This document shows, in pieces, positions 13,124-35,675 of a DNA stretch of 46,587 nucleotides (its first letter is position 1; each line of letters begins with the position of its first letter). The notes under the pieces were generated by a model. The model did no database searches. It was not told where the DNA came from and saw only the letters and a program-made list of their open reading frames with translations. The DNA comes from Flavobacteriia bacterium (GTDB taxonomy: Bacteria; Bacteroidota; Bacteroidia; Flavobacteriales_D; Crocinitomicaceae). The stretch covers positions 1-46,587 of the forward strand of contig CANGOF010000010.1 of NCBI GenBank assembly GCA_947455515.1, written 5' to 3'. Position numbers and translations under genes: made by a program.

Positions 13124-16100
13124 ATGGCAGTTAACAAACTACATATCTTTTTTTTTAAAGAAAAAATTACTTTTTTGGTAGTTTTATGTAGTTTGTTTTG
13201 CTTCCAAAAAAAATCATTTTCTCAATGTACTCCTATAATTGAGTTTACAACTACTTCAGGTACACTAAGTGGATGTGCGCCATTTAGTGTTTCATTTAAA
13301 GATCCAAATACTACTTCTTCTCGTTCATGGGATTTTGGAGATGGAAAATCAACGTCAGGAGCTCAAAGTCCATTTCACACCTTTGATGGAGGTGTAATCG
13401 GTGATACAACCTATACGGTTACTTTAACAAAAGCTTGTAATGGAGGGGTTTCTACCGACGTGACTGTAACAGTATACGCCAAGCCGAAAATTAATTTTAA
13501 GGTAGATACTACTTCTGTGTGTGCTATTAATGACCAAGCTAAGTTCACTAATTTATCAGAAGCAGGAGCTTATTTATGGAACTTTGGAGATAATACTTCA
13601 TCTACCACGAAGCACCCAACTAAAGCATATAATTCTGGAGGTAAATACGATGTTTCCTTAAAGGTTACCAATGTTCATGGTTGTGAGGACACGAAAGTGA
13701 AACCAAAAATGATGACGGTAAACTCTTTACCTAGTCCAGATTTTACGTTAAACAAGTATTCAGGTTGTACTCCTTTGACATTGAATATAAAAAACACTAC
13801 CGATACGACCAATGTGCAAATCAAATATTGGAGCTGGAACCTAGGAGATGGAAGTAAATTAGATTCTTCCAGTGTCCCGGCATCCCATGATTATACTATT
13901 CCTGGCACGAAAACTATTGTCTTAACGACAACTTCTGTATTAGGGTGTAAAAGTAGTACTTCTAATACAATTAGTGTCTTAACTTCTCCCAGTTCGGATT
14001 TTAGTATTTCCCCTACTGAAATATGTTCAAGTGATTCTTTAAAAATTACTTATTTAGGAAGTGCAGGACCAAATGCAAACTATGCTTGGAGTTTAAATGG
14101 TGGTATAGCTACTCCTGGAATTGGAAAAGGACCTCATTGGGTGAATTGGATTAAAGGGGGGGTAAAAACGTTAAGCTTAACGGTCACAGATAGTACATGT
14201 TCTTCTATTTCAACCAAACAAGCAACAGTTTTAGTTAGTCCTATTATTTCTTTTGTAGCATCCAATGATACAATTTGCATAGGGGATGAAGTTACATTTA
14301 CTACTTCGCCGGCATCGTTAGTCGATTATAAGGTGTACAAAAACGGAAGTCTATATCAGACGATGGAAGAGAATGAATTTACAACTTCCTTACTGTCTAC
14401 TGGAGACGTATTTTATGTAGTTGCAACTGATGTGAAAGGATGTAAATCAAAGAAAAGTAATTATGAACGAATGGTAGTAAAAACCAGACCTGTAGTTTCT
14501 TTGTTAAGTTCTGATTTAGATAATATTATATGTTCTGGAGATTTAGTTACGTTTAGTGGTATACCCACAAATTATTCAAGCTATACGTTTTATAATTTTA
14601 GCCAACCTCTACAAATAGGTGTGTCAACGAATTTAAATACAACTACCTTAACAGATAATGACTCTATTTTTGTTGAGGCTACCAATTTCAATGGATGTGC
14701 AAAAATGTCGAGTAATGCTTTTGTAATGAAAGTACTCCCACCATTGCCTAAACCTGTTGTAAATTGTGGAGCATCTACTGATAGTCAAGTATCGTTTGTA
14801 TGGGGAGATATTCAAGGTGCTTCTGGGTACCAAGTGAGTGTAAATGGTGGAGCATTTCAAGATCCTAGTTCGGGCTTGACTGGTTTATCCCATGTTTTCG
14901 GAGGACTTTCCAGTGGAGATTCTACAAAAATTGTAGTAAAAGCAATCGGCTCGTTTTCATGTGCTACAAGCTTAGTTTCCAAAGCAAAATCGTGTGTTTC
15001 GAAAGTTTGTACTCCTTTTACTATGAAGTATACTCCTTTCGATACAATATGTAGTGGTGAAGCAGTTAAATTACGTGTTGACAATATATCTGCTACCAAT
15101 TATTCTGTATCATGGAATGGTGGAGCTCCAAGTAAAGATACAACGTTTACTTTTCATCCAGCATTAGATTCGGAAATTACTGCTGTAATTAAAGATTCAT
15201 CTCAATTATCTTTTTGCTCAAATTTTGATGCAACATTTAGGATTAAAGTTTATCCACTTCCACTTGTAACACTTAATTCAAGTTTATCTCCAATTAATTG
15301 TAAAGGAAATGTAGCAAAATTAACTGCAACACCTTCCAATTATGATTATTATACATTTTATAGTGGAAATCAAATTTTACAATCCAGTTGGAAAAATTAT
15401 TTTACTTTGAAAAATGTAAAGAATGGGGTTCCATTAACCGTTGTAGCAGAAAATTTTGGTTGCAAAGCGACTTCAACAAACACCATTATAAATACGGTTA
15501 TAGAACCACTTGCACAACCAGTTGTGAACTGTGGAGGTTCAACGACTTCTTCTATGGAGTTCACGTGGGATGCGATTCCAAATTCCATTGGCTATGAAAT
15601 CAGTGTGGAAGGGGGGAATTGGATAACACCAAGTTCAGGTGTTACAGGATTGAAACATTTGATAAATGGGTTAACTCCAGGGACAGCATCTTATGTTTCT
15701 GTTCGTGCATTAGGTGCAACGGTTTGTGGAAATTCAAAAGTTTCAGTTCAAGCAAGTTGTTTTACGAATCCCTGTACTGCAATTACTTATAACGCTCCAA
15801 CAACAGTTAGTATCTGTCAAGGTGCCAAAACAAATATTGCGGTTACCGGTATTAATATCCCTAAATACGAAGTTGCATGGAATAAAACTACGTTTGCAAA
15901 AGCTACTTCCTTTAATGTTAAACCTACAAAGGATACTATTATTACTATTAATGTTAGAAATGCGAATGAATTAAATTGTCCTTATGTAACAAAATACACA
16001 CGTATTGAGGTGATAGAACAACCAAATGTTTCCTTAGCGATTTCTCCTACTTCTAATTGTTTTGGGGATTCTGTTTCTTTAATTGCTAAACCAGTTACCT

Positions 16101-19100
16101 ATGAAGCTTATAAATTTTATAATGGATCTTCTTTATTGTATTCAGGTATTAAAAGTACTTTTAAATCCGATAAATTTAAGTCTGGCGCTCAATTAAAAGT
16201 GATTGCACGTAATGGTTCTTGTGTCGATACATCCTCAGTCATTCCATTAGTAGTTTCCATTCCTTTGGAGAAACCTGTTGCAAATTCCGGTCATATTGAC
16301 ACATCTACTATCGATTTTGTTTGGGATGCAATTCCAAACGCTGCGGGTTATCGTGTAAGTGTAAATAATGGGCCATATAGTATGCCAAGTTCTGGTAATT
16401 TAGGTTTGAAACACACGATTACAGGATTAGCTCCAGGTCAATCGCGTATTTTTAAGGTCATGGCCTTAGGAAATACTGCTTGTGGTGATAGTCCAGAATC
16501 AGATACAATTATTAGACATACAACCTACGTTCCAGATTCAGTATGTACAGCAATTACATTTAATAAATTTTCAACTACGTCGATTTGCGAAGGGGATAGT
16601 ATTACTGTGTCCATTAATTCAATAAACGCACCGTTCCACAAGATTTCTTGGGAACATGGAGCATTGGATACAATAACTTCCTATCGTGTAGGTCCAATTG
16701 TAAATGATACTATACCAGTAAGTGTATACAGAACAAATGAACCATTTTGCCCTGCAGTAACCAAATTTATTATTGTAAAAGTTAATCCTAAACCAATTGT
16801 TGACATAATAGCTTCTATTATTAATGATAGTATTTGTGAAGGAGATGCAATAACATTTACAGCGGAGCCAAATGGTTATGCATTATATGATTTTAAGAAT
16901 AATGGAATTACTTTGCAATCTTCGAATGGAAATGAATATGCACAACCAACTATTGCATCTTCATTGACTTTAACTGTTTTAGTAAAAGACGATATAGGAT
17001 GTACAGCAACAAGTGATCCATTTAAAATGACGGTTGTTCCTAAACCTGTAATTTCTTTGACGAGTAACGCGATTAACGGGGGTATATGTATTGGCAGCGA
17101 TTTGATGGTTTCGGCTAAACCAACCAATTTTAAAAAATATAATTTTTACGAAAGTGGTAATCAAGTGCAATCATCTGTTAGTACCATTTATAGCCAATTT
17201 TCAATAAATAAGTCCTATTCTATAACTGCGAATGCAATTCATCCTTTTGGTTGTGTCGGCGATCTAACTCCAGCTCTACCAATTCAGTTATTTCAATTAC
17301 CTATCTTAACCATATTGTCATCTGATTTAGATAACAGTATCTGTGATGGGGATTCCTATTCAATTACTGCTAGTCCAAGCAACCTACCTAAGTATGTTTT
17401 CTATGAAAATGCAACAGCAGTTCAAACTTCTAATTCAAATGTTAAAACCTATTCATCCTTGACGGTCAATAAAATGATTCATGTTGTGGGTACTGATATT
17501 AATACATGTGTTAGTAAAAGTTCGGATACAATCTCTGTAATTGTTAATCCTATACCATCGATGACAAGCCCAACTGCATTAACACTTTGTAGTGGTTTTG
17601 AAGTGAATATCCCATTAAAAAGTACGATACCTTGTACCTTTACATGGCAGGCATCGAATAATCCAAACATTCAAGGAGAAAGTACGATTAAACAAACAAC
17701 AAACACATTGAAAGATTCGCTAAAAAACACAAATATTTTAAAAGAAATTGTGAGCTATTCTGTTATCCCTACATCCCTGCCAGGTTGTACAGGAGCAACC
17801 CAAACTGTTACTATTTCAGTTAATCCTACACCAAAAATTCCTAATCTTTTAGATACTGTTTGTAGCGGGTTAGCATTTACCATTCAACCTCAAAATGGAA
17901 TACCTTTAGGTACGATTGTACCAGCAAATTCTACGTACACTTGGACTGCTCCATCTTTCTCTGCTCCTGGAACAATAACTGGTGCAAGCGCACAATTTTC
18001 AGGTGTAAATAAAATTTCTCAAACATTAAATAATACTACAAACACTGCATCTATTGTGACTTATGTTGTAACTCCAAAATCTGGAGCAACAGGTGGTTGT
18101 ACTGGTAAACCATTTAATGTGGATGTTTTAATTAATCCAACTCCATCGATAACTTCATTTAGCTCAGATTCTCTATGCAGTAATTCAAAATTTATTAAAT
18201 TACCATTAAATGGTGTGCCTTCTAGTTCAAACATAGTACCTGCTAATATCATCTACACTTGGCCTATGCCAATCATTCTTCCTAATGGTGCAATAACTGG
18301 CGCGAATGCTCAATCGATTGGACAAACCAGTATTTCAGAAACTTTGGTCAATAACACCTTAGACTTAGCAAACATAAATTATGTTATCACTCCAAAAGCT
18401 GGTAAATGTACTGGGCCAAATTTTACAATACCTTTAGTAGTAAAGCCAGTCCCTACAATGACGAATGAACTTACCAAAAGTTTTTGTAGTGATAACACGG
18501 TGAATATTGCATTAACTCCTTCCGTTTCTTCTAGTTTGAGTTGGTATGCAAATGAGAATTCTTCCATATTAGGAGAATCTACGACTAATCAAATTAGTAA
18601 TTCAATTAAAGACAAATTAACGAATCAATCCAATACTGTTCAAACAGTAGATTATTTTGTCACTCCAATTTCTGATTATAATTGTAAAGGAGTAAAAACC
18701 CCAATTTCGATTACAGTTTATCCAAAACCTGTTATTTCAGACGTAACTAAAGCATTGTGTTCTGGGGATTCTATTATAGTAAAACCTGTAAATTTTGTTA
18801 ATGGGGATATTGTTCCTCAAAACACTTCCTACACTTGGTTAAATCCTGTGGTAAATCCTGTCGATACGATTACTGGATGGAAAGGACAACCAACGCCAAT
18901 TTTGAGTTTATCCCAACAATTAAATACTACTTCGGTTTCTGGTGACATTACATATACGATTTCCCCTGTTTCAGGAGATTTAGGTAAATGTATAGGTAAA
19001 AATTTTACGGTAAAAGTTAATGTACATCCTGTCCCAAATCCAAAAGTGTCAGCAGATTTAAAAGGAATTTGTATAGGAACATCTGTTACTATTACAACAA

Positions 19101-19774
19101 GCTTTGATGAAACAAATTATCCAAGTACTTCTTACGTTTGGAGTGATGGACAGAAAAAGAAAAATATCACAGTGAAACCTACTGTTACTACAGATTATAT
19201 TTTAAATGTTACAAGCAATGGTTGTAAAAGTATCGACGATACCATACATGTGGAGGTAGATGTAAACGTACCAAAAGCTGATGCAGGTAAAGATTTTGTG
19301 TTATGTCGTTATGATACTGCAACTTTACATGCTACTGGTGGTAAATCTTATATTTGGGAGGATCAATTGGGGATTGCAAATAAGACTACTGCGTCTCCAA
19401 AAGTTGCACCTGTTGTAACAACAATTTATAAAGTTCATGTTCTGAACGATTTCTGTGAAACAACCGACGAAATAGAGGTGATCATCGATAAATGTTTGAA
19501 GGATTTACCAGATAAAGTACCACAAGTTTTTACACCGAACACGGATGGTACAAATGATGTTTTTACTATTGTTGACGTGGATTATTTTCCTAAAAATTCA
19601 TTGATAATTTTTAATAGATGGGGAAATATTGTGTACCAAGCTTCTCCTTATAATAACACGTGGGATGGTAAAAATGAAAATGGAGATGATCTTCCAGATG
19701 GAACTTATTATTATTCTTTAGATATTGGAAATGGACATGAACCATACAAAGGGTTTGTAGTAATTACGAGGTGA
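13124..19774 (+). CDS. Giant PKD/Fn3-like cell-surface protein with T9SS type B sorting domain
   Basis: The 2216-residue protein has an N-terminal signal segment ending near FSQC. Three PKD domains follow (about 46-286; SWDFGDGKS, LWNFGDNTSS, SWNLGDGSK), then Ig-like segments. Three Fn3-like modules lie at about 542-626, 795-881 and 1048-1130, each with P-V-NxG, W..I..A.GY..SV and SSG..GL.H blocks. About five PKD-like repeats span roughly 1480-1970 (PTPSITSFSSDSLCS style). The last 85 residues (FTPNTDGTNDVF, NRWGNIVYQ, LPDGTYYY) are the gliding-motility-associated C-terminal domain, i.e. a type B T9SS signal. It is likely exported by T9SS and surface-anchored as an adhesin or filament. The next gene, a PorP/SprF protein, overlaps its stop and is probably a dedicated partner. 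Confidence 0.92.
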   Translation: MAVNKLHIFFFKEKITFLVVLCSLFCFQKKSFSQCTPIIEFTTTSGTLSGCAPFSVSFKDPNTTSSRSWDFGDGKSTSGAQSPFHTFDGGVIGDTTYTVTLTKACNGGVSTDVTVTVYAKPKINFKVDTTSVCAINDQAKFTNLSEAGAYLWNFGDNTSSTTKHPTKAYNSGGKYDVSLKVTNVHGCEDTKVKPKMMTVNSLPSPDFTLNKYSGCTPLTLNIKNTTDTTNVQIKYWSWNLGDGSKLDSSSVPASHDYTIPGTKTIVLTTTSVLGCKSSTSNTISVLTSPSSDFSISPTEICSSDSLKITYLGSAGPNANYAWSLNGGIATPGIGKGPHWVNWIKGGVKTLSLTVTDSTCSSISTKQATVLVSPIISFVASNDTICIGDEVTFTTSPASLVDYKVYKNGSLYQTMEENEFTTSLLSTGDVFYVVATDVKGCKSKKSNYERMVVKTRPVVSLLSSDLDNIICSGDLVTFSGIPTNYSSYTFYNFSQPLQIGVSTNLNTTTLTDNDSIFVEATNFNGCAKMSSNAFVMKVLPPLPKPVVNCGASTDSQVSFVWGDIQGASGYQVSVNGGAFQDPSSGLTGLSHVFGGLSSGDSTKIVVKAIGSFSCATSLVSKAKSCVSKVCTPFTMKYTPFDTICSGEAVKLRVDNISATNYSVSWNGGAPSKDTTFTFHPALDSEITAVIKDSSQLSFCSNFDATFRIKVYPLPLVTLNSSLSPINCKGNVAKLTATPSNYDYYTFYSGNQILQSSWKNYFTLKNVKNGVPLTVVAENFGCKATSTNTIINTVIEPLAQPVVNCGGSTTSSMEFTWDAIPNSIGYEISVEGGNWITPSSGVTGLKHLINGLTPGTASYVSVRALGATVCGNSKVSVQASCFTNPCTAITYNAPTTVSICQGAKTNIAVTGINIPKYEVAWNKTTFAKATSFNVKPTKDTIITINVRNANELNCPYVTKYTRIEVIEQPNVSLAISPTSNCFGDSVSLIAKPVTYEAYKFYNGSSLLYSGIKSTFKSDKFKSGAQLKVIARNGSCVDTSSVIPLVVSIPLEKPVANSGHIDTSTIDFVWDAIPNAAGYRVSVNNGPYSMPSSGNLGLKHTITGLAPGQSRIFKVMALGNTACGDSPESDTIIRHTTYVPDSVCTAITFNKFSTTSICEGDSITVSINSINAPFHKISWEHGALDTITSYRVGPIVNDTIPVSVYRTNEPFCPAVTKFIIVKVNPKPIVDIIASIINDSICEGDAITFTAEPNGYALYDFKNNGITLQSSNGNEYAQPTIASSLTLTVLVKDDIGCTATSDPFKMTVVPKPVISLTSNAINGGICIGSDLMVSAKPTNFKKYNFYESGNQVQSSVSTIYSQFSINKSYSITANAIHPFGCVGDLTPALPIQLFQLPILTILSSDLDNSICDGDSYSITASPSNLPKYVFYENATAVQTSNSNVKTYSSLTVNKMIHVVGTDINTCVSKSSDTISVIVNPIPSMTSPTALTLCSGFEVNIPLKSTIPCTFTWQASNNPNIQGESTIKQTTNTLKDSLKNTNILKEIVSYSVIPTSLPGCTGATQTVTISVNPTPKIPNLLDTVCSGLAFTIQPQNGIPLGTIVPANSTYTWTAPSFSAPGTITGASAQFSGVNKISQTLNNTTNTASIVTYVVTPKSGATGGCTGKPFNVDVLINPTPSITSFSSDSLCSNSKFIKLPLNGVPSSSNIVPANIIYTWPMPIILPNGAITGANAQSIGQTSISETLVNNTLDLANINYVITPKAGKCTGPNFTIPLVVKPVPTMTNELTKSFCSDNTVNIALTPSVSSSLSWYANENSSILGESTTNQISNSIKDKLTNQSNTVQTVDYFVTPISDYNCKGVKTPISITVYPKPVISDVTKALCSGDSIIVKPVNFVNGDIVPQNTSYTWLNPVVNPVDTITGWKGQPTPILSLSQQLNTTSVSGDITYTISPVSGDLGKCIGKNFTVKVNVHPVPNPKVSADLKGICIGTSVTITTSFDETNYPSTSYVWSDGQKKKNITVKPTVTTDYILNVTSNGCKSIDDTIHVEVDVNVPKADAGKDFVLCRYDTATLHATGGKSYIWEDQLGIANKTTASPKVAPVVTTIYKVHVLNDFCETTDEIEVIIDKCLKDLPDKVPQVFTPNTDGTNDVFTIVDVDYFPKNSLIIFNRWGNIVYQASPYNNTWDGKNENGDDLPDGTYYYSLDIGNGHEPYKGFVVITR

Positions 19775-29469: not shown

Positions 29470-29850
29470 ATGGAAAAAGAAAAAAATAGATATTCAGACG
29501 TTGAATTACAAGAGTTTAAAGAATTGATTTTAGAAAAATTAAAAGAAGCAGAAAACGATTATTCTTTATTAAGCAAATCTCTTTCTTTATCGGATGATCA
29601 CGGTACAGATGATACAGGACGTACGTTCAATATGATGGAAGATGGTTCAGAAACGTTATCCAGAGAAGAAGTTGCTCAATTAGCTGCACGTCAAGAACAA
29701 TTTATTCAAAGTTTGAAAAATGCATTGATTCGTATTGAAAATAAAACATATGGAGTATGTAGAGAAACAGGTAAATTAATTCAAAAAGAACGTTTACGTT
29801 TAGTTCCTCACGCAACGTTAAGTATTGAAGCAAAAAACGCTAAGAAATAA
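29470..29850 (+). CDS. TraR/DksA-family zinc-finger-like protein, degenerate cysteines
   Basis: The 126-residue protein has an N-terminal coiled-coil region (LQEFKELILEKLKEAENDY) and the conserved DDTGRTFNMMEDGSE block. Its C-terminal pseudo-zinc-finger YGVCRETGKLIQKERLRLVPHA keeps only one of the four usual cysteines, a form I associate with Bacteroidota DksA-like proteins. DksA-type proteins bind the secondary channel of RNA polymerase, and a similar role is likely but untested here. The start was moved from TTG 29440 to ATG 29470 because the upstream TTG is part of a -7 box. lspA follows one base after the stop. Confidence 0.88.
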   Translation: MEKEKNRYSDVELQEFKELILEKLKEAENDYSLLSKSLSLSDDHGTDDTGRTFNMMEDGSETLSREEVAQLAARQEQFIQSLKNALIRIENKTYGVCRETGKLIQKERLRLVPHATLSIEAKNAKK

Positions 29851-29851
29851 T

Positions 29852-30538
29852 ATGTTTCGAAAAAAGTTATTCATTGTAGGGGCTGTAGTGGCCCTTATTT
29901 TGTTTTTAGACCAAGCGATGAAAATTTACATGAAATCATCCATGGTTGCTGCTATTGAACCAATCAACATTTTCGGTTCTTGGTTACGATTACAATATAT
30001 TGAAAACCCAGGAATGGCTTTTGGAACCACCTTTGGTAGTGGTATTATTGCCAAATTATCACTAAGTATTTTTAGAATTATAGCGATTGGAGGAATCGCA
30101 TGGTATTGGGTAAAACAAGCGAAAGCAAATGCAAGAATCGAGTTTTTAATAGCTATTGGATTCATTTTTGCCGGTGCTTTAGGAAATTTAATCGACTCCA
30201 TGTTTTATGATTTTATATTTCCTTTTGATCCTTGTTCAAGCTATAATCAATTTCCAGGTTCGGGAGTAAAAGCAATCTGCAATTATTTTGGGACAAATCC
30301 AGTCGAAGTGGAAGTTCGTTACCAAGGATTTTTATTAGGAAATGTGGTAGATATGTTTCAGTTTAATGGAAATTGGCCGAATTGGGTTCCATTTGTTGGT
30401 GGTAACGAACTTTTTCCTGCCATTTGGAATTTAGCGGATGGATCCATCACGATTGGAGTGATAATGGTTTTACTTCGACAACGCACGTATTTCCCAAAAG
30501 AAAAGAAAGTAGAGGTATCAGTATCTTCAGAAGAATAA
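29852..30538 (+). CDS. lspA: Lipoprotein signal peptidase LspA
   Basis: The 228-residue membrane aspartyl peptidase cleaves lipoprotein signal peptides at the inner membrane. Motifs are DQAMKIYMKSSM in the first TM region, ENPGMAFG, GALGNLIDSMFYDFIF (first catalytic Asp) and GNVVDMFQF (second catalytic Asp). A loop of about 40 residues between the last two motifs makes it longer than the roughly 160-residue E. coli protein, as is usual for Bacteroidota. The ORF-track TTG at 29825 lies inside the upstream gene; the ATG at 29852, one base after the DksA-like stop, is the better start. Confidence 0.93.
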   Translation: MFRKKLFIVGAVVALILFLDQAMKIYMKSSMVAAIEPINIFGSWLRLQYIENPGMAFGTTFGSGIIAKLSLSIFRIIAIGGIAWYWVKQAKANARIEFLIAIGFIFAGALGNLIDSMFYDFIFPFDPCSSYNQFPGSGVKAICNYFGTNPVEVEVRYQGFLLGNVVDMFQFNGNWPNWVPFVGGNELFPAIWNLADGSITIGVIMVLLRQRTYFPKEKKVEVSVSSEE

Positions 30539-30548
30539 AGTTTAAATT

Positions 30549-31805
30549 ATGTTACTCGCGCCCGGTGCTCACGGTTGGATTACCAAATACGAAGATTTAC
30601 TGAATAAAGGTGAAATCATTGTATCTGTAGAAAAACCAATAGGGTTTAGTTTGGAGCATTTCGCTCACTTGCATCTTTCACAATCGGGAATAGTTTTTGG
30701 ATTCCCTACGGAACTTTTATTTGCAACGGAGGTAGATGGTAATTCATGGACCACTGAAGAAAAATTAACCTTACTTTTGTTTGAATCCCATTTATTTATT
30801 TTTGTTTTAAATGGGGGAGATGCTGTAAACGATTTTGACAATTTTATCGCTTCTCTTCTTGCTTTTTATGGAAAGCACAACGCACCTACCGTTAGTAAAT
30901 TAATGGGTTTTTTCAAGAAAGAATCTTCGGTCGAAAAATTAGAAAATATTCTAGAAAAACGAACAGATATTAAATTGAATTTTAGAGATAATGCTTTCTG
31001 GGTAAATTATTTAAGCAATTCGTTTGTTTACCTTGATGTGATTCTTTATCATGAATATATAAAAACCCAGAAAACTATTATTGAATCTAATTACGAAGAA
31101 TTAGCATTAGATGTATTGAAGACAATTGTTTTTACAGGCTATTCAGATGGAGAATTACAACCAGCAGAAAAAGCAATGTTTGATGTTTTCTTGGCTTCTG
31201 CTAACTTAAATGATCAACGTAAAAAACAAGCGTTATATTACATTAAAAACGGAGCTTCTTTAACAGATTTATCTGCAATTTTCTCCCACATTTGGATGTT
31301 TAAACGTTTCTTAATTGATATTTCTGTTTTAACCATTTACACTAACCAAGAAACGTTAGTTAACGAGAAAGATTTTTTATTGAAATTCTGTGATTTCCTT
31401 CATGTTCCTAGAGAAGAATTGAATGAAACTATTGTAACAATTGAGCAATTTGTTTTGAATCACACCGATAAAATCTCCTTTCTTCAAAATAAAAATGCTG
31501 TAGAACATTTGTATGGAAATGTATCTAAACGTTGGATTAAAATTTTAGGAAGAAACAAAGATAAATTAGCTTTGGAGTTAAAACAAAGCAAAGAGTTGAT
31601 GCTTCTCATTAAGAAGTCTACGATTCAAGAATTAACCAAAGAAGAGAAGGAAAAAGTGAAAACGCAGTTTTTGGACTTGTTAAAAACGATGCCAGCGATA
31701 ACTATTTTTATGTTGCCAGGTGGCGCCTTATTACTACCTATCGTAATGAAAATAATTCCGGATTTGATTCCTTCTGCTTTTAGAGATAATGAAATTGAGG
31801 AATAA
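30549..31805 (+). CDS. LETM1-related protein with central TerB-like segment, cytosolic-facing copy
   Basis: The 418-residue protein has no signal peptide. Its C-terminal block LTKEEKEKVKTQFLDLLK followed by hydrophobic FMLPGGALLLPIVMKIIPDLIPSAF closely resembles the LETM1 membrane segment of mitochondrial ion-exchange proteins (P..FLLPV..K.FPN.LPSTF). A central stretch (FTGYSDGELQPAEKAMFDVFL) looks TerB-like. I recall the family being called LETM1-related biofilm-associated protein in Flavobacteria. The biochemical role in bacteria is not established. It starts 10 bases after lspA and is followed by a paralogue, so it is part of a run of closely spaced genes. Confidence 0.78.
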   Translation: MLLAPGAHGWITKYEDLLNKGEIIVSVEKPIGFSLEHFAHLHLSQSGIVFGFPTELLFATEVDGNSWTTEEKLTLLLFESHLFIFVLNGGDAVNDFDNFIASLLAFYGKHNAPTVSKLMGFFKKESSVEKLENILEKRTDIKLNFRDNAFWVNYLSNSFVYLDVILYHEYIKTQKTIIESNYEELALDVLKTIVFTGYSDGELQPAEKAMFDVFLASANLNDQRKKQALYYIKNGASLTDLSAIFSHIWMFKRFLIDISVLTIYTNQETLVNEKDFLLKFCDFLHVPREELNETIVTIEQFVLNHTDKISFLQNKNAVEHLYGNVSKRWIKILGRNKDKLALELKQSKELMLLIKKSTIQELTKEEKEKVKTQFLDLLKTMPAITIFMLPGGALLLPIVMKIIPDLIPSAFRDNEIEE

Positions 31806-31806
31806 A

Positions 31807-32940
31807 ATGCGTAAATTATTCGTTTGCATCGTATTTAGTGTTTTTTTATTTCATTCATTTGGACAAAATGCAGCTTTGACTTCGTTATATCCAAATTCTA
31901 GAGGTTGGATTAATAAGTATGAAGATTTATTTATTAAAGGAAATATCAGCTTTACGCAATACGTGAAAATTCCATCTCTGGTAGAAAAAACAATTGCCTT
32001 AGAACGTGTTTACCTTCCGGAAAGTTATCCTACTTTGATTTATGCAACTCGCATTTCAGACCAATATTGGACTAAAAAAGACAAAAGTAAACTGTTGTTA
32101 TTTGAATATTTTTTAAATGCTTTTATAGAAAAAAAAGGCTTGCCAAAAAATGACTTAGATGATTTTATTAATTCTTTAAGTGTTTTTTATCATGCAGATA
32201 CAACTAAATTATTCAGTAAACTTTTAAAAATTGATTTTTTAGAATTGAAAATTGCCCATAAAATCCAAATTCGCCGAAATTGGTTACGGAATCCAATGTG
32301 GTATCGTTCAGAAGCTAACGCATTATTGATGAATGAAATAACACAATTTAAGGGATTTCTTGAAAGTGGAGTTGAATTTTCAAAGGAATTAGCAGATACA
32401 TTAGAAAATTCGATTATTTCTTTTGTTGTGAAAGAATCTCGAAAAGATTTTATTATTAATTGTAAGGAGAAAGAATTAGTTGATTTTTATCTTGCTTCAT
32501 CTCGTTTATCAAAAAAAAACAAAAATGATTGGAGAAAAAAACTTGAAAATTCGGATACTAATCATTATTCAAATGGGTCAATTAAAAAAGGTGAACAAAC
32601 TACTTCTGCTTTTGATTTATGTGAGGATAATTTAACGAAATGGCAAAATGAAGCTGGTTTTAAGTGGTCTAGAATAAAACATCGTAATTTGTATAAATTC
32701 AAAATCGAAGTTGTCGAAACGAAAGAATTTTTTTCGCTTTGTAAAAAATCATTTAAAACAGACTTATCCTCAGAAGAACGTATCAAAGTAAAGAATCAAT
32801 CAATAGATTTATTAATGTGTATTCCCTCTACAATAATTTTCATAATCCCTGGTGGATCAATCATTTTACCTTTCGCTTTAAAATACATTCCTGTTTTATG
32901 TCCTTCTGCATTTAAAGACAACTCCTTAAAAGTACACTAA
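31807..32940 (+). CDS. LETM1-related protein, signal-peptide-bearing paralogue
   Basis: The 377-residue protein is a diverged paralogue of its upstream neighbour. The N-terminal RGWINKYEDLF parallels HGWITKYEDLL, and the C-terminal LSSEERIKVKNQSIDLLMCIP, IIPGGSIILPFALKYIP and CPSAFKDN parallel the LETM1-like tail. Unlike the first copy it begins with a signal peptide (MRKLFVCIVFSVFLFHSFGQ), so it would face the periplasm. The TerB-like middle is shortened and degenerate. The ATG at 31807, one base after the previous stop, is preferred over 31789 because it gives a normal signal peptide. Its stop overlaps the next start by one base. Confidence 0.75.
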   Translation: MRKLFVCIVFSVFLFHSFGQNAALTSLYPNSRGWINKYEDLFIKGNISFTQYVKIPSLVEKTIALERVYLPESYPTLIYATRISDQYWTKKDKSKLLLFEYFLNAFIEKKGLPKNDLDDFINSLSVFYHADTTKLFSKLLKIDFLELKIAHKIQIRRNWLRNPMWYRSEANALLMNEITQFKGFLESGVEFSKELADTLENSIISFVVKESRKDFIINCKEKELVDFYLASSRLSKKNKNDWRKKLENSDTNHYSNGSIKKGEQTTSAFDLCEDNLTKWQNEAGFKWSRIKHRNLYKFKIEVVETKEFFSLCKKSFKTDLSSEERIKVKNQSIDLLMCIPSTIIFIIPGGSIILPFALKYIPVLCPSAFKDNSLKVH

Positions 32941-33782
32941 TGTTAAAAAACGTTATAGTTATTTTCCTTTTTATTAATTGTTATTATCTAAATGCTCAGA
33001 ATATCGTTAGAATTGGATCATTACCTGAATCTATTTCAGAAACCTCAGGTTTAGTTTTTTATAATGATTCACTTCTTATAACTCACAACGATAGTGGAGA
33101 CAAGCCAATACTTTATTTTATAAATTTGAAAGGTAAATTAGTCCATCAAGTATTAGTTGAAAACGCCTCCAATACGGACTGGGAAGATGTATGTACAGAC
33201 AATCAAGGAAATTTGTATGTAGGTGATATAGGTAATAATCGTAACGATAGAAAATCACTTACTATTTATAAGATTTTGATGGATCGACTTATTGGAAAAG
33301 TGAAAGTGAATGCGGAAGTTATAACTTTTTCATATCCAGATCAAAAGTTATTTCCTCCAATGGATTCATTGAAAAATTTTGATGCAGAAGGATTGGCCTT
33401 TCATAATGATTCATTATTAATTTTTACAAAATGTAGAGCGACTCCTTTCAATGGATATTCCTATTGTTATAAGTTACCTACAACACCTGGGAAGTATTTA
33501 GCCAAAAAGAGTTTTGAATTATTTATTGGAAAAAAAGGCTTTATGAGAGATGCTGTTACTGCAGCAACAATCTGTAATAATAAACTTTATTTATTGACGT
33601 ATAATCGCTTTTTAGTCTACAATTACCAAATAGGACGTTGGGTATTTCAAGAGCAACATTTTACCAATCCTTATTCTCAGAAAGAAGCGATAATTACAAA
33701 AGACAATAGAACAATCTATCTAACAGATGAATTGCAAAAAATTGTTGGAGGTGGTAAATTGTATAAAATGGAACTCAAATGA
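32940..33782 (+). CDS. Secreted beta-propeller-like protein of unknown function
   Basis: The 280-residue product has a signal peptide (FLFINCYYLNAQ) and repeated short strands. Conserved-looking blocks include ETSGLVFYNDSLLITHNDSGD, NTDWEDVCTDNQGNLYVGDIGNN and NFDAEGLAFHNDSLL. The pattern of HNDSGD then DWEDV then GDIGNN fits a widespread secreted propeller-like family without a firm function. It starts within the stop of the LETM1-like gene (TAATG) and overlaps the HAD phosphatase start by four bases. Co-translation is likely. Confidence 0.72.
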   Translation: MLKNVIVIFLFINCYYLNAQNIVRIGSLPESISETSGLVFYNDSLLITHNDSGDKPILYFINLKGKLVHQVLVENASNTDWEDVCTDNQGNLYVGDIGNNRNDRKSLTIYKILMDRLIGKVKVNAEVITFSYPDQKLFPPMDSLKNFDAEGLAFHNDSLLIFTKCRATPFNGYSYCYKLPTTPGKYLAKKSFELFIGKKGFMRDAVTAATICNNKLYLLTYNRFLVYNYQIGRWVFQEQHFTNPYSQKEAIITKDNRTIYLTDELQKIVGGGKLYKMELK

Positions 33783-35098: not shown

Positions 35099-35401
35099 CT
35101 ATCTCTTTTTCAATTTATTTGGATTTTTACGTGTATCAAAAACATGAGTGATTATTACGCAATCATCTTTAACGACATAAATTATTTTGTTGTGATTGCT
35201 TAAAAGATATCTATGTTCTTCTTCATAGAATGAAAGTAAAGGTTCAATTTGACCTAAATACAAACCAAGTTTTAGCGTATTTGTTGCATGTAATATTTCC
35301 TTAATAATTTTTTTTGCAACTTTTTTATTCGAAGTATTAAGATAAAATTGAAAAATAGTTTCTAAATCCTTTTCAGCAGAAACTGTCCATTTTAGAAGCA
35401 T
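35099..35401 (-). CDS. ParE/RelE-type toxin
   Basis: The 100-residue basic protein has the ParE/RelE layout: an N-terminal helix pair (KWTVSAEKDLETIFQFYLN), a central HRYLLSNHNKIIYVV strand, and the terminal VIITHVFDTRKNP. The lysine-rich C-terminus fits a toxin. The start was moved to 35401, because that ATG follows the antitoxin stop (TAACATG) and the longer 35425 start would extend into the antitoxin. Target (gyrase or ribosome) cannot be told apart by eye. It ends two bases from the convergent DUF3109 gene. Confidence 0.85.
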   Translation of the reverse strand: MLLKWTVSAEKDLETIFQFYLNTSNKKVAKKIIKEILHATNTLKLGLYLGQIEPLLSFYEEEHRYLLSNHNKIIYVVKDDCVIITHVFDTRKNPNKLKKR

Positions 35402-35402
35402 G

Positions 35403-35630
35403 TTACCACTTTTTGATTTTCTCAACTAATTCTTCTTGGGATATAAGTTTACCGTCTTGAATTTCTTGACGAGTGACTAATACACGATCAATAATTTCTT
35501 TGTCAGACATGGATGGATATGTAGAAATCTCATCCTCAATTACTTTTACAAAATCCAATGATTTAACGTATTCCATAAAAGCAAGTACTTTAGGATTTGT
35601 CGAGTCATTAATATGTAGTGTAAAAGCCAT
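35403..35630 (-). CDS. Antitoxin partner of the ParE/RelE-type toxin
   Basis: The 75-residue acidic protein precedes the toxin by one base on the same strand. Its C-terminal tail EIQDGKLISQEELVEKIKKW is the amphipathic type used by many addiction-module antitoxins to wrap the toxin. No ribbon-helix-helix or HTH domain is evident in the N-terminal half (AFTLHINDSTNPKVLAFMEYV), so the DNA-binding class is unclear. The start was moved from 35675 to 35630, since the longer start falls inside the promoter elements. Confidence 0.8.
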   Translation of the reverse strand: MAFTLHINDSTNPKVLAFMEYVKSLDFVKVIEDEISTYPSMSDKEIIDRVLVTRQEIQDGKLISQEELVEKIKKW

Positions 35631-35645
35631 GTTTTCTTTTTTAAT

Positions 35646-35675
35646 CAAATATACTAAATAGATTATTTTTTTCAA
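35646..35675 (-). promoter_or_regulatory. Promoter of the toxin-antitoxin operon (TTG-N19-TATATTTG)
   Basis: Read on the minus strand, TTG at 35675-35673 is followed after 19 bases by TATATTTG at 35653-35646, a textbook Bacteroidota promoter. The start codon at 35630 lies 15 bases beyond the -7 box, so the leader is very short. Confidence 0.75.

Follow-up and report, generated by a model that had tools for sequence, protein, structure and literature searches.

The locus and its two genes

The window, that is, the whole stretch of 46,587 nucleotides analysed here, is from contig CANGOF010000010.1 of a freshwater bacterium and holds two tandem genes, called A (protein P0001) and B (P0002) in the following. 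The coordinates given for both genes, for the features within them and for their neighbours lspA and gene C are all on the + strand. Gene A (30549..31805) encodes 418 aa without a signal peptide and belongs to NCBIfam NF040639, "LETM1-related biofilm-associated protein", whose profile matches it with 267 bits over residues 5-416, above the curated cut-off of 250. Gene B (31789..32940) encodes 383 aa, is a tandem paralogue of A and is predicted to be exported by means of a Sec-type signal peptide. The same profile scores it at 113 bits, below the 250 cut-off. A preliminary description of this DNA had proposed two tandem genes here, both with a LETM1-like block, and the open reading frames and the Pfam profile LETM1_RBD confirm this. 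For the biofilm role in the name of NF040639 we found no paper with supporting evidence in the literature searched, nor did that literature yield anything on bacterial LETM1-related proteins or their role in biofilms.

The two frames overlap by 17 nt, with the start of B falling within the last codons of A, and the overlap is kept in close relatives. The first residues of B, MKLRN, are an out-of-frame reading of these last codons (31789-31805). The codons that supply them are conserved, and in two relatives without B (L041 and L042) the open reading frame of the downstream gene begins at the same out-of-frame ATG. We considered whether the downstream exported gene had supplied B with its signal peptide, and the junction sequences gave no support for this.

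The absence of a signal peptide from A and its presence in B, both part of the preliminary description, were upheld. An in-frame stop lies two codons upstream of the ATG of A, which excludes a hidden signal peptide in this protein. In other genomes a few A frames have an apparently longer N-terminus, in which an internal Met precedes the conserved start; these look like upstream start-codon choice, and hidden signal peptides in the A family were rejected. The members of NF040639 sampled elsewhere are single copies, none of which needs a signal peptide. In B the signal peptide comprises residues about 1-25 (31789..31863, ...FLFHSFG/QNAA) and is of a typical Bacteroidota type. A hydrophobic N-terminus of signal-peptide type is found in 8/8 B copies, the seven relatives of the window's B included.

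Upstream of the pair are a DksA/TraR-type gene and lspA (signal peptidase II, 29825..30538; Pfam Peptidase_A8, E 2e-30), which ends 10 nt before A and is its operon neighbour in the genus. Downstream follow gene C (32940..33782), which overlaps B by 1 nt and encodes an exported beta-propeller-like protein with a weak SGL/NHL match, a HAD hydrolase gene and a DUF3109 gene. This gene order is conserved within the genus. A homologue of gene C lies at most 5 genes from A in 21 of 61 loci, other genera included, in codirectional or divergent orientation, and this recurrent proximity may reflect a functional link to the envelope. At repeated A-gene neighbourhoods the gene C homologue is followed by a HAD hydrolase. 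TerC was considered as a partner; it occurs in the genus and is not linked to the locus. Elsewhere in the window, two small overlapping genes on the - strand (35099-35675) resemble by eye a RelE/ParE-type toxin with its antitoxin, and only some relatives have them here; an open reading frame of 2216 aa (13124-19774) has other large frames on its flanks.

The TerB-like middle domain

Residues about 181-310 of A (31089..31478) form a TerB-like helical domain. The profile of A matched TerB chains over residues 179-291 (2ou3, E 0.006; 2jxu, E 0.39). The TerB match for P0001 alone is weak (E 0.17), and the profile and the relatives are clearer: Pfam matches were obtained to TerB in 25/51 A members and to DUF533 in 24/51. 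Compared as a single sequence with solved structures, A gave one match, which was dismissed as chance. The AlphaFold2 model of A is all-helical (pLDDT 77.8, pTM 0.72), and Foldseek related it to 2h5n (P. gingivalis PG1108) with probability 0.90, TM 0.61 on the target and 4.7 A, at an E-value that is not significant. On the profile evidence, then, the middle of A is a TerB domain.

The model of B is likewise all-helical (pLDDT 75.0, pTM 0.59), with residues 2-29 as one high-confidence helix, and a fold search with it returned no match. None of the 8 B members had a Pfam TerB match, and a single DUF533 match was obtained at 0.14. The region remaining in B, residues about 197-285 (32377..32643), is shorter than in A. 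The Asp and Glu of the TerB first half are kept (8/8 each), and the five closest B copies have lost most of the second half. The degenerate TerB-like middle that had been proposed for B is thus borne out, as a region no longer recognised by the domain profile. The known TerB/DUF533 family (COG3793) resembles the middle of A in profile and, to a weak degree, in fold. It differs in that A joins the domain to a helical region at the N-terminus and to a membrane block, and that B has lost much of it. B also has two cysteines, Cys 225 and Cys 278, which are conserved among the five closest B copies and absent from A, and which would suit an oxidising compartment.

Relation to LETM1

The LETM1-like block comprises residues 362-415 in A (31632..31793), including the proline-rich transmembrane segment P382-K401, and residues 326-379 in B (32764..32925), where it is the best-conserved part of the protein. 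In A1, P382, P390, P397 and P404 are invariant. Pfam LETM1_RBD (PF07766) matches A with 31.2 bits and B with 25.3 bits, at a cut-off of 25.3, and in both proteins only profile positions 1-54 of 229 are covered, with 55-229 unmatched. Judged by these matches, the relation to LETM1 is limited to about 54 residues around the transmembrane segment. Both proteins end within about 18 residues of that segment, and since they end so shortly after the block, the matrix LETM domain is missing.

In human LETM1 the corresponding segment has conserved P211, P219 and E221, and mutation of E221 abolishes Ca2+ uptake in liposomes (PMC7761412). The spacing of P382 and P390 in A, 8 residues, is the same as that of P211 and P219. 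At the position equivalent to E221 there is Gly in 80/82 A-type sequences and in 8/8 of B, the remaining two A-type sequences having Arg, and none of the 90 has an acidic residue there. The two with Arg are A-type homologues (L121, 1486-2754; L122, 391-1653) in which PQR replaces PGG in mid-block. The LETM domain, K230-L466, is required for yeast complementation by LETM1 (PMC7058069).

The likeness to the mitochondrial LETM1/Mdm38 proteins (PF07766) thus consists of the proline-rich transmembrane block with equal spacing of two conserved prolines. Unlike A and B, the mitochondrial proteins have E221 and a matrix LETM/ribosome-binding domain, and their bulk lies C-terminal of the block, while that of A and B lies N-terminal. 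Of the features of the exchanger family, the proline-rich block is therefore present and the acidic residue and the matrix domain are absent; A and B thus fail two tested features of membership in the exchanger family, while kinship through the membrane segment stands. Because the LETM/ribosome-binding domain is C-terminal of the shared segment, a comparison with the LETM1 fold is uninformative for this kinship.

The block also occurs in a minimal form. Five short proteins of 104-143 aa, from other families and in one case from the window's family (L055, 5462-5776; L056, 5597-6007; L057, 2625-3056; L058, 5550-5966; L059, 5339-5749), consist of little beyond a helical stretch and the LETM1-like block; their PF07766 matches are mostly weak or none, and the basic residue preceding the block is kept.

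Distribution, origin and selection

The homology of A and B extends through almost all of both proteins, with an hhalign E-value of 2e-67 and 27% identical residues in an alignment of 373 columns. A-type genes were found in 220/240 genomes of the window's family and in all 24 genera sampled there. In the wider class A occurs as single copies, with any match in 45/395 genomes. Among the genomes searched, B is restricted to 8 genomes of the window's genus. Close orthologues, 60-64% identical to B, are found in G000, G001, G004, G005 and G010; the copy in G006 is 33% identical and those in G007 and G011 are 29% identical. In four related genomes (G002, G008, G009 and G012) there is no B and A directly precedes the next gene, which argues that A works without B. 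Other Bacteroidota were searched for such tandem pairs, as had been suggested, and the arrangement was found only in this genus: candidate tandem copies outside it were rejected, the genomes with two matches having contig-end fragments, distant single-domain matches or copies on separate contigs. Eight genomes of the genus share the arrangement, with contigs of 77 kb and 181 kb among those that carry it; this is more than chance, and a chimeric metagenome-assembled genome was rejected because five separate assemblies have the same order.

In a maximum-likelihood tree the B sequences form a single clade (support 97/96), and one label change suffices. On this tree, B has one origin, by tandem duplication of A. 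The branches of B are long, which makes the exact point of attachment unsure, as well as whether the duplication took place before or within the genus.

When both proteins are compared between the same pairs of genomes, identity is 92-97% and dN/dS about 0.015-0.03 for A, against 61-88% and 0.12-0.21 for B. B is accordingly under purifying selection and roughly 5 to 10 times less constrained than A. Among the five B orthologues mean identity is 87% in the block (residues 337-378), 63-70% elsewhere outside the signal peptide and 39% in the signal-peptide segment. The main regions of A are all similar in this respect, at 93-96% identity.

Signs of inverted topology

The layout predicted for A (30549..31805) is an N-terminal bulk in the cytoplasm and a C-terminal tail anchor. 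In B the signal peptide extends the N-terminus: the median distance between the start and a conserved Trp (Trp10 of A) is 37 residues in B against 9 in A.

A further sign is the residue three positions before the transmembrane block, K379 of A (codon 31683..31685). A basic residue, K or R, occupies this position in all A-type sequences (82/82) and in 5/5 of the short LETM1-only proteins, whereas the counterpart in B, M343 in the window (codon 32815..32817), is M or T and basic in none of the 8 copies. By residue class, 83 positions reach a conservation of at least 95% in A. Only three of these are missing from every one of the 8 B copies, and K379 is the sole charged one among them. The loss of this charge was probably one event on the B stem and not eight independent ones.

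The tail behind the block differs as well. In A it is acidic (SAFRDNEIEE, 31773..31802, net -3; mean -2.0 over A), and in B it is basic (SAFKDNSLKVH, 32905..32937, net +1; +1 to +2 in the window's B and its four orthologues). In the more distant copies it is not basic (0 in G006, -1 in G007 and G011), and by these counts a clear inversion of tail charge is confined to the five closest B copies. The loss of K379 and the shift in the tail, two signs of topology beyond those of the preliminary description, agree with what the positive-inside rule predicts when the N-side of a segment is transferred from the cytoplasm to the periplasm. Both changes, however, belong to a single lineage.

The mean hydropathy of the block, about 2.1-2.2, is within the transmembrane range. 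Its summed insertion energy is poor, with a median of +1.8 in A and +2.8 in B on a simple scale applied without position weights. The prolines and glycines of the block account for this, and passage of B through the translocon is conceivable for that reason. Human LETM1 is likewise proline-rich, a feature that has been associated with its special sorting route (PMC8954634), and the orientation of mitochondrial LETM1 is debated, with two topologies or sorting through the matrix proposed (PMC8954634, PMC8012663).

Discussion

That the two proteins have opposite topologies, as first proposed, gains independent support from signal peptides in 8/8 B copies with none needed by A, from a basic residue before the block that 8/8 B copies have lost against 0/82 A-type sequences, and from the inverted tail charge of the closest B copies. 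For B itself, a span across the membrane competes with release into the periplasm. The latter is the main rival to a spanning B, and we regard it as unlikely though by no means negligible. The block would then pass SecYEG and B would be a periplasmic protein, either soluble or peripherally attached, that has a function of its own. In favour of this are the insertion energy, which is marginal for the block and less favourable in B than in A, the rapid divergence of B, the partial loss of its middle domain and its additional conserved cysteines. A segment that merely passed through would, on the other hand, hardly be expected to be the best-conserved part of the protein, prolines and PGG included, or to have lost a basic residue in front and gained basic residues behind, as matches a spanning segment. 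Distinctly less probable is a signal peptide that remains uncleaved as an N-terminal anchor, with B held at both ends and its bulk in the periplasm. The N-terminal hydrophobic segment is long enough to suggest this, and AlphaFold2 models it as the confident helix 2-29, but most copies have typical cleavage motifs of a small residue and Gln (xAQ, xGQ), and the segment drifts as fast (39% mean identity) as is expected of a cleaved signal.

Two other explanations we consider very improbable. The preliminary description had hinted at cation exchange, and A and B could be a cation/proton exchanger like mitochondrial LETM1, with which they share the proline-rich block and the 8-residue spacing of human P211 and P219. 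This hint gained no support: only the block of about 54 residues is LETM1-like, all 90 sequences of A and B type have Gly or Arg in place of E221, and the LETM domain needed for yeast complementation (PMC7058069) is absent. Cation exchange by A and B is thus unsupported by their sequences. The least probable explanation is that B is a decaying duplicate without function. Its fast divergence, its partly lost middle domain and its absence from several relatives are what such decay would produce, but the dN/dS of 0.12-0.21, the open frames in 8/8 copies and the strong conservation of the membrane block speak against it.

The explanation that we prefer, and to which we would give about an even chance, is that A and B are an inverted-topology pair of paralogues like YdgE/YdgF, in which the inversion came about by gain of a signal peptide. 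A would be an inner-membrane protein whose helical bulk with the TerB domain lies in the cytoplasm, anchored by the LETM1-type segment, with the short acidic tail outside. After tandem duplication of A in the ancestor of the genus, or within it, B would have gained a Sec signal peptide and been threaded in reverse, its bulk becoming periplasmic and its short basic tail cytoplasmic. The flanking charges of B would have changed to suit, and the TerB half-domains would have degenerated while the membrane block was kept. As the most likely working mode, we infer that A and B meet through this same block, as an antiparallel pair or in a mixed oligomer, and that B extends the assembly of A on the cytoplasmic side by a part in the periplasm; the whole would act as a scaffold or sensor and not as an ion exchanger itself. 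Homology, duplication, the signal-peptide sequence, the inverted charges and selection come directly from the computations, whereas membrane insertion, orientation, pairing and function are the interpretation placed on them.

YdgE/YdgF and YdgQ/YdgL are polytopic proteins that are not known to have cleaved signal peptides. Like A and B they are homologous inner-membrane proteins with opposite charge bias, but in B a single tail segment was apparently turned by way of a signal peptide, which would have moved a large soluble domain across the membrane. The genes of YdgE and YdgF overlap, as do those of A and B, and these two homologous proteins of opposite charge bias are said to form antiparallel heterodimers (PMC3962082). 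A and B, for their part, are homologous products of adjacent genes with opposite flanking-charge bias. It is tempting to speculate, though we hold it to be rather doubtful, that two homologues here meet antiparallel through one proline-rich segment and so connect a TerB domain in the cytoplasm with a domain in the periplasm. Equally tentative is the suggestion that an antiparallel assembly of A and B would be a transmembrane type not previously described in bacteria, within the literature searched.

If the preferred reading is true, A and B would represent topology inversion by gain of a signal peptide in a single-span protein with a large soluble domain, in contrast to the charge drift of small polytopic proteins. 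If the block truly sits in the membrane both ways, the pair would also be a test case for direction-independent function of a proline-rich segment.
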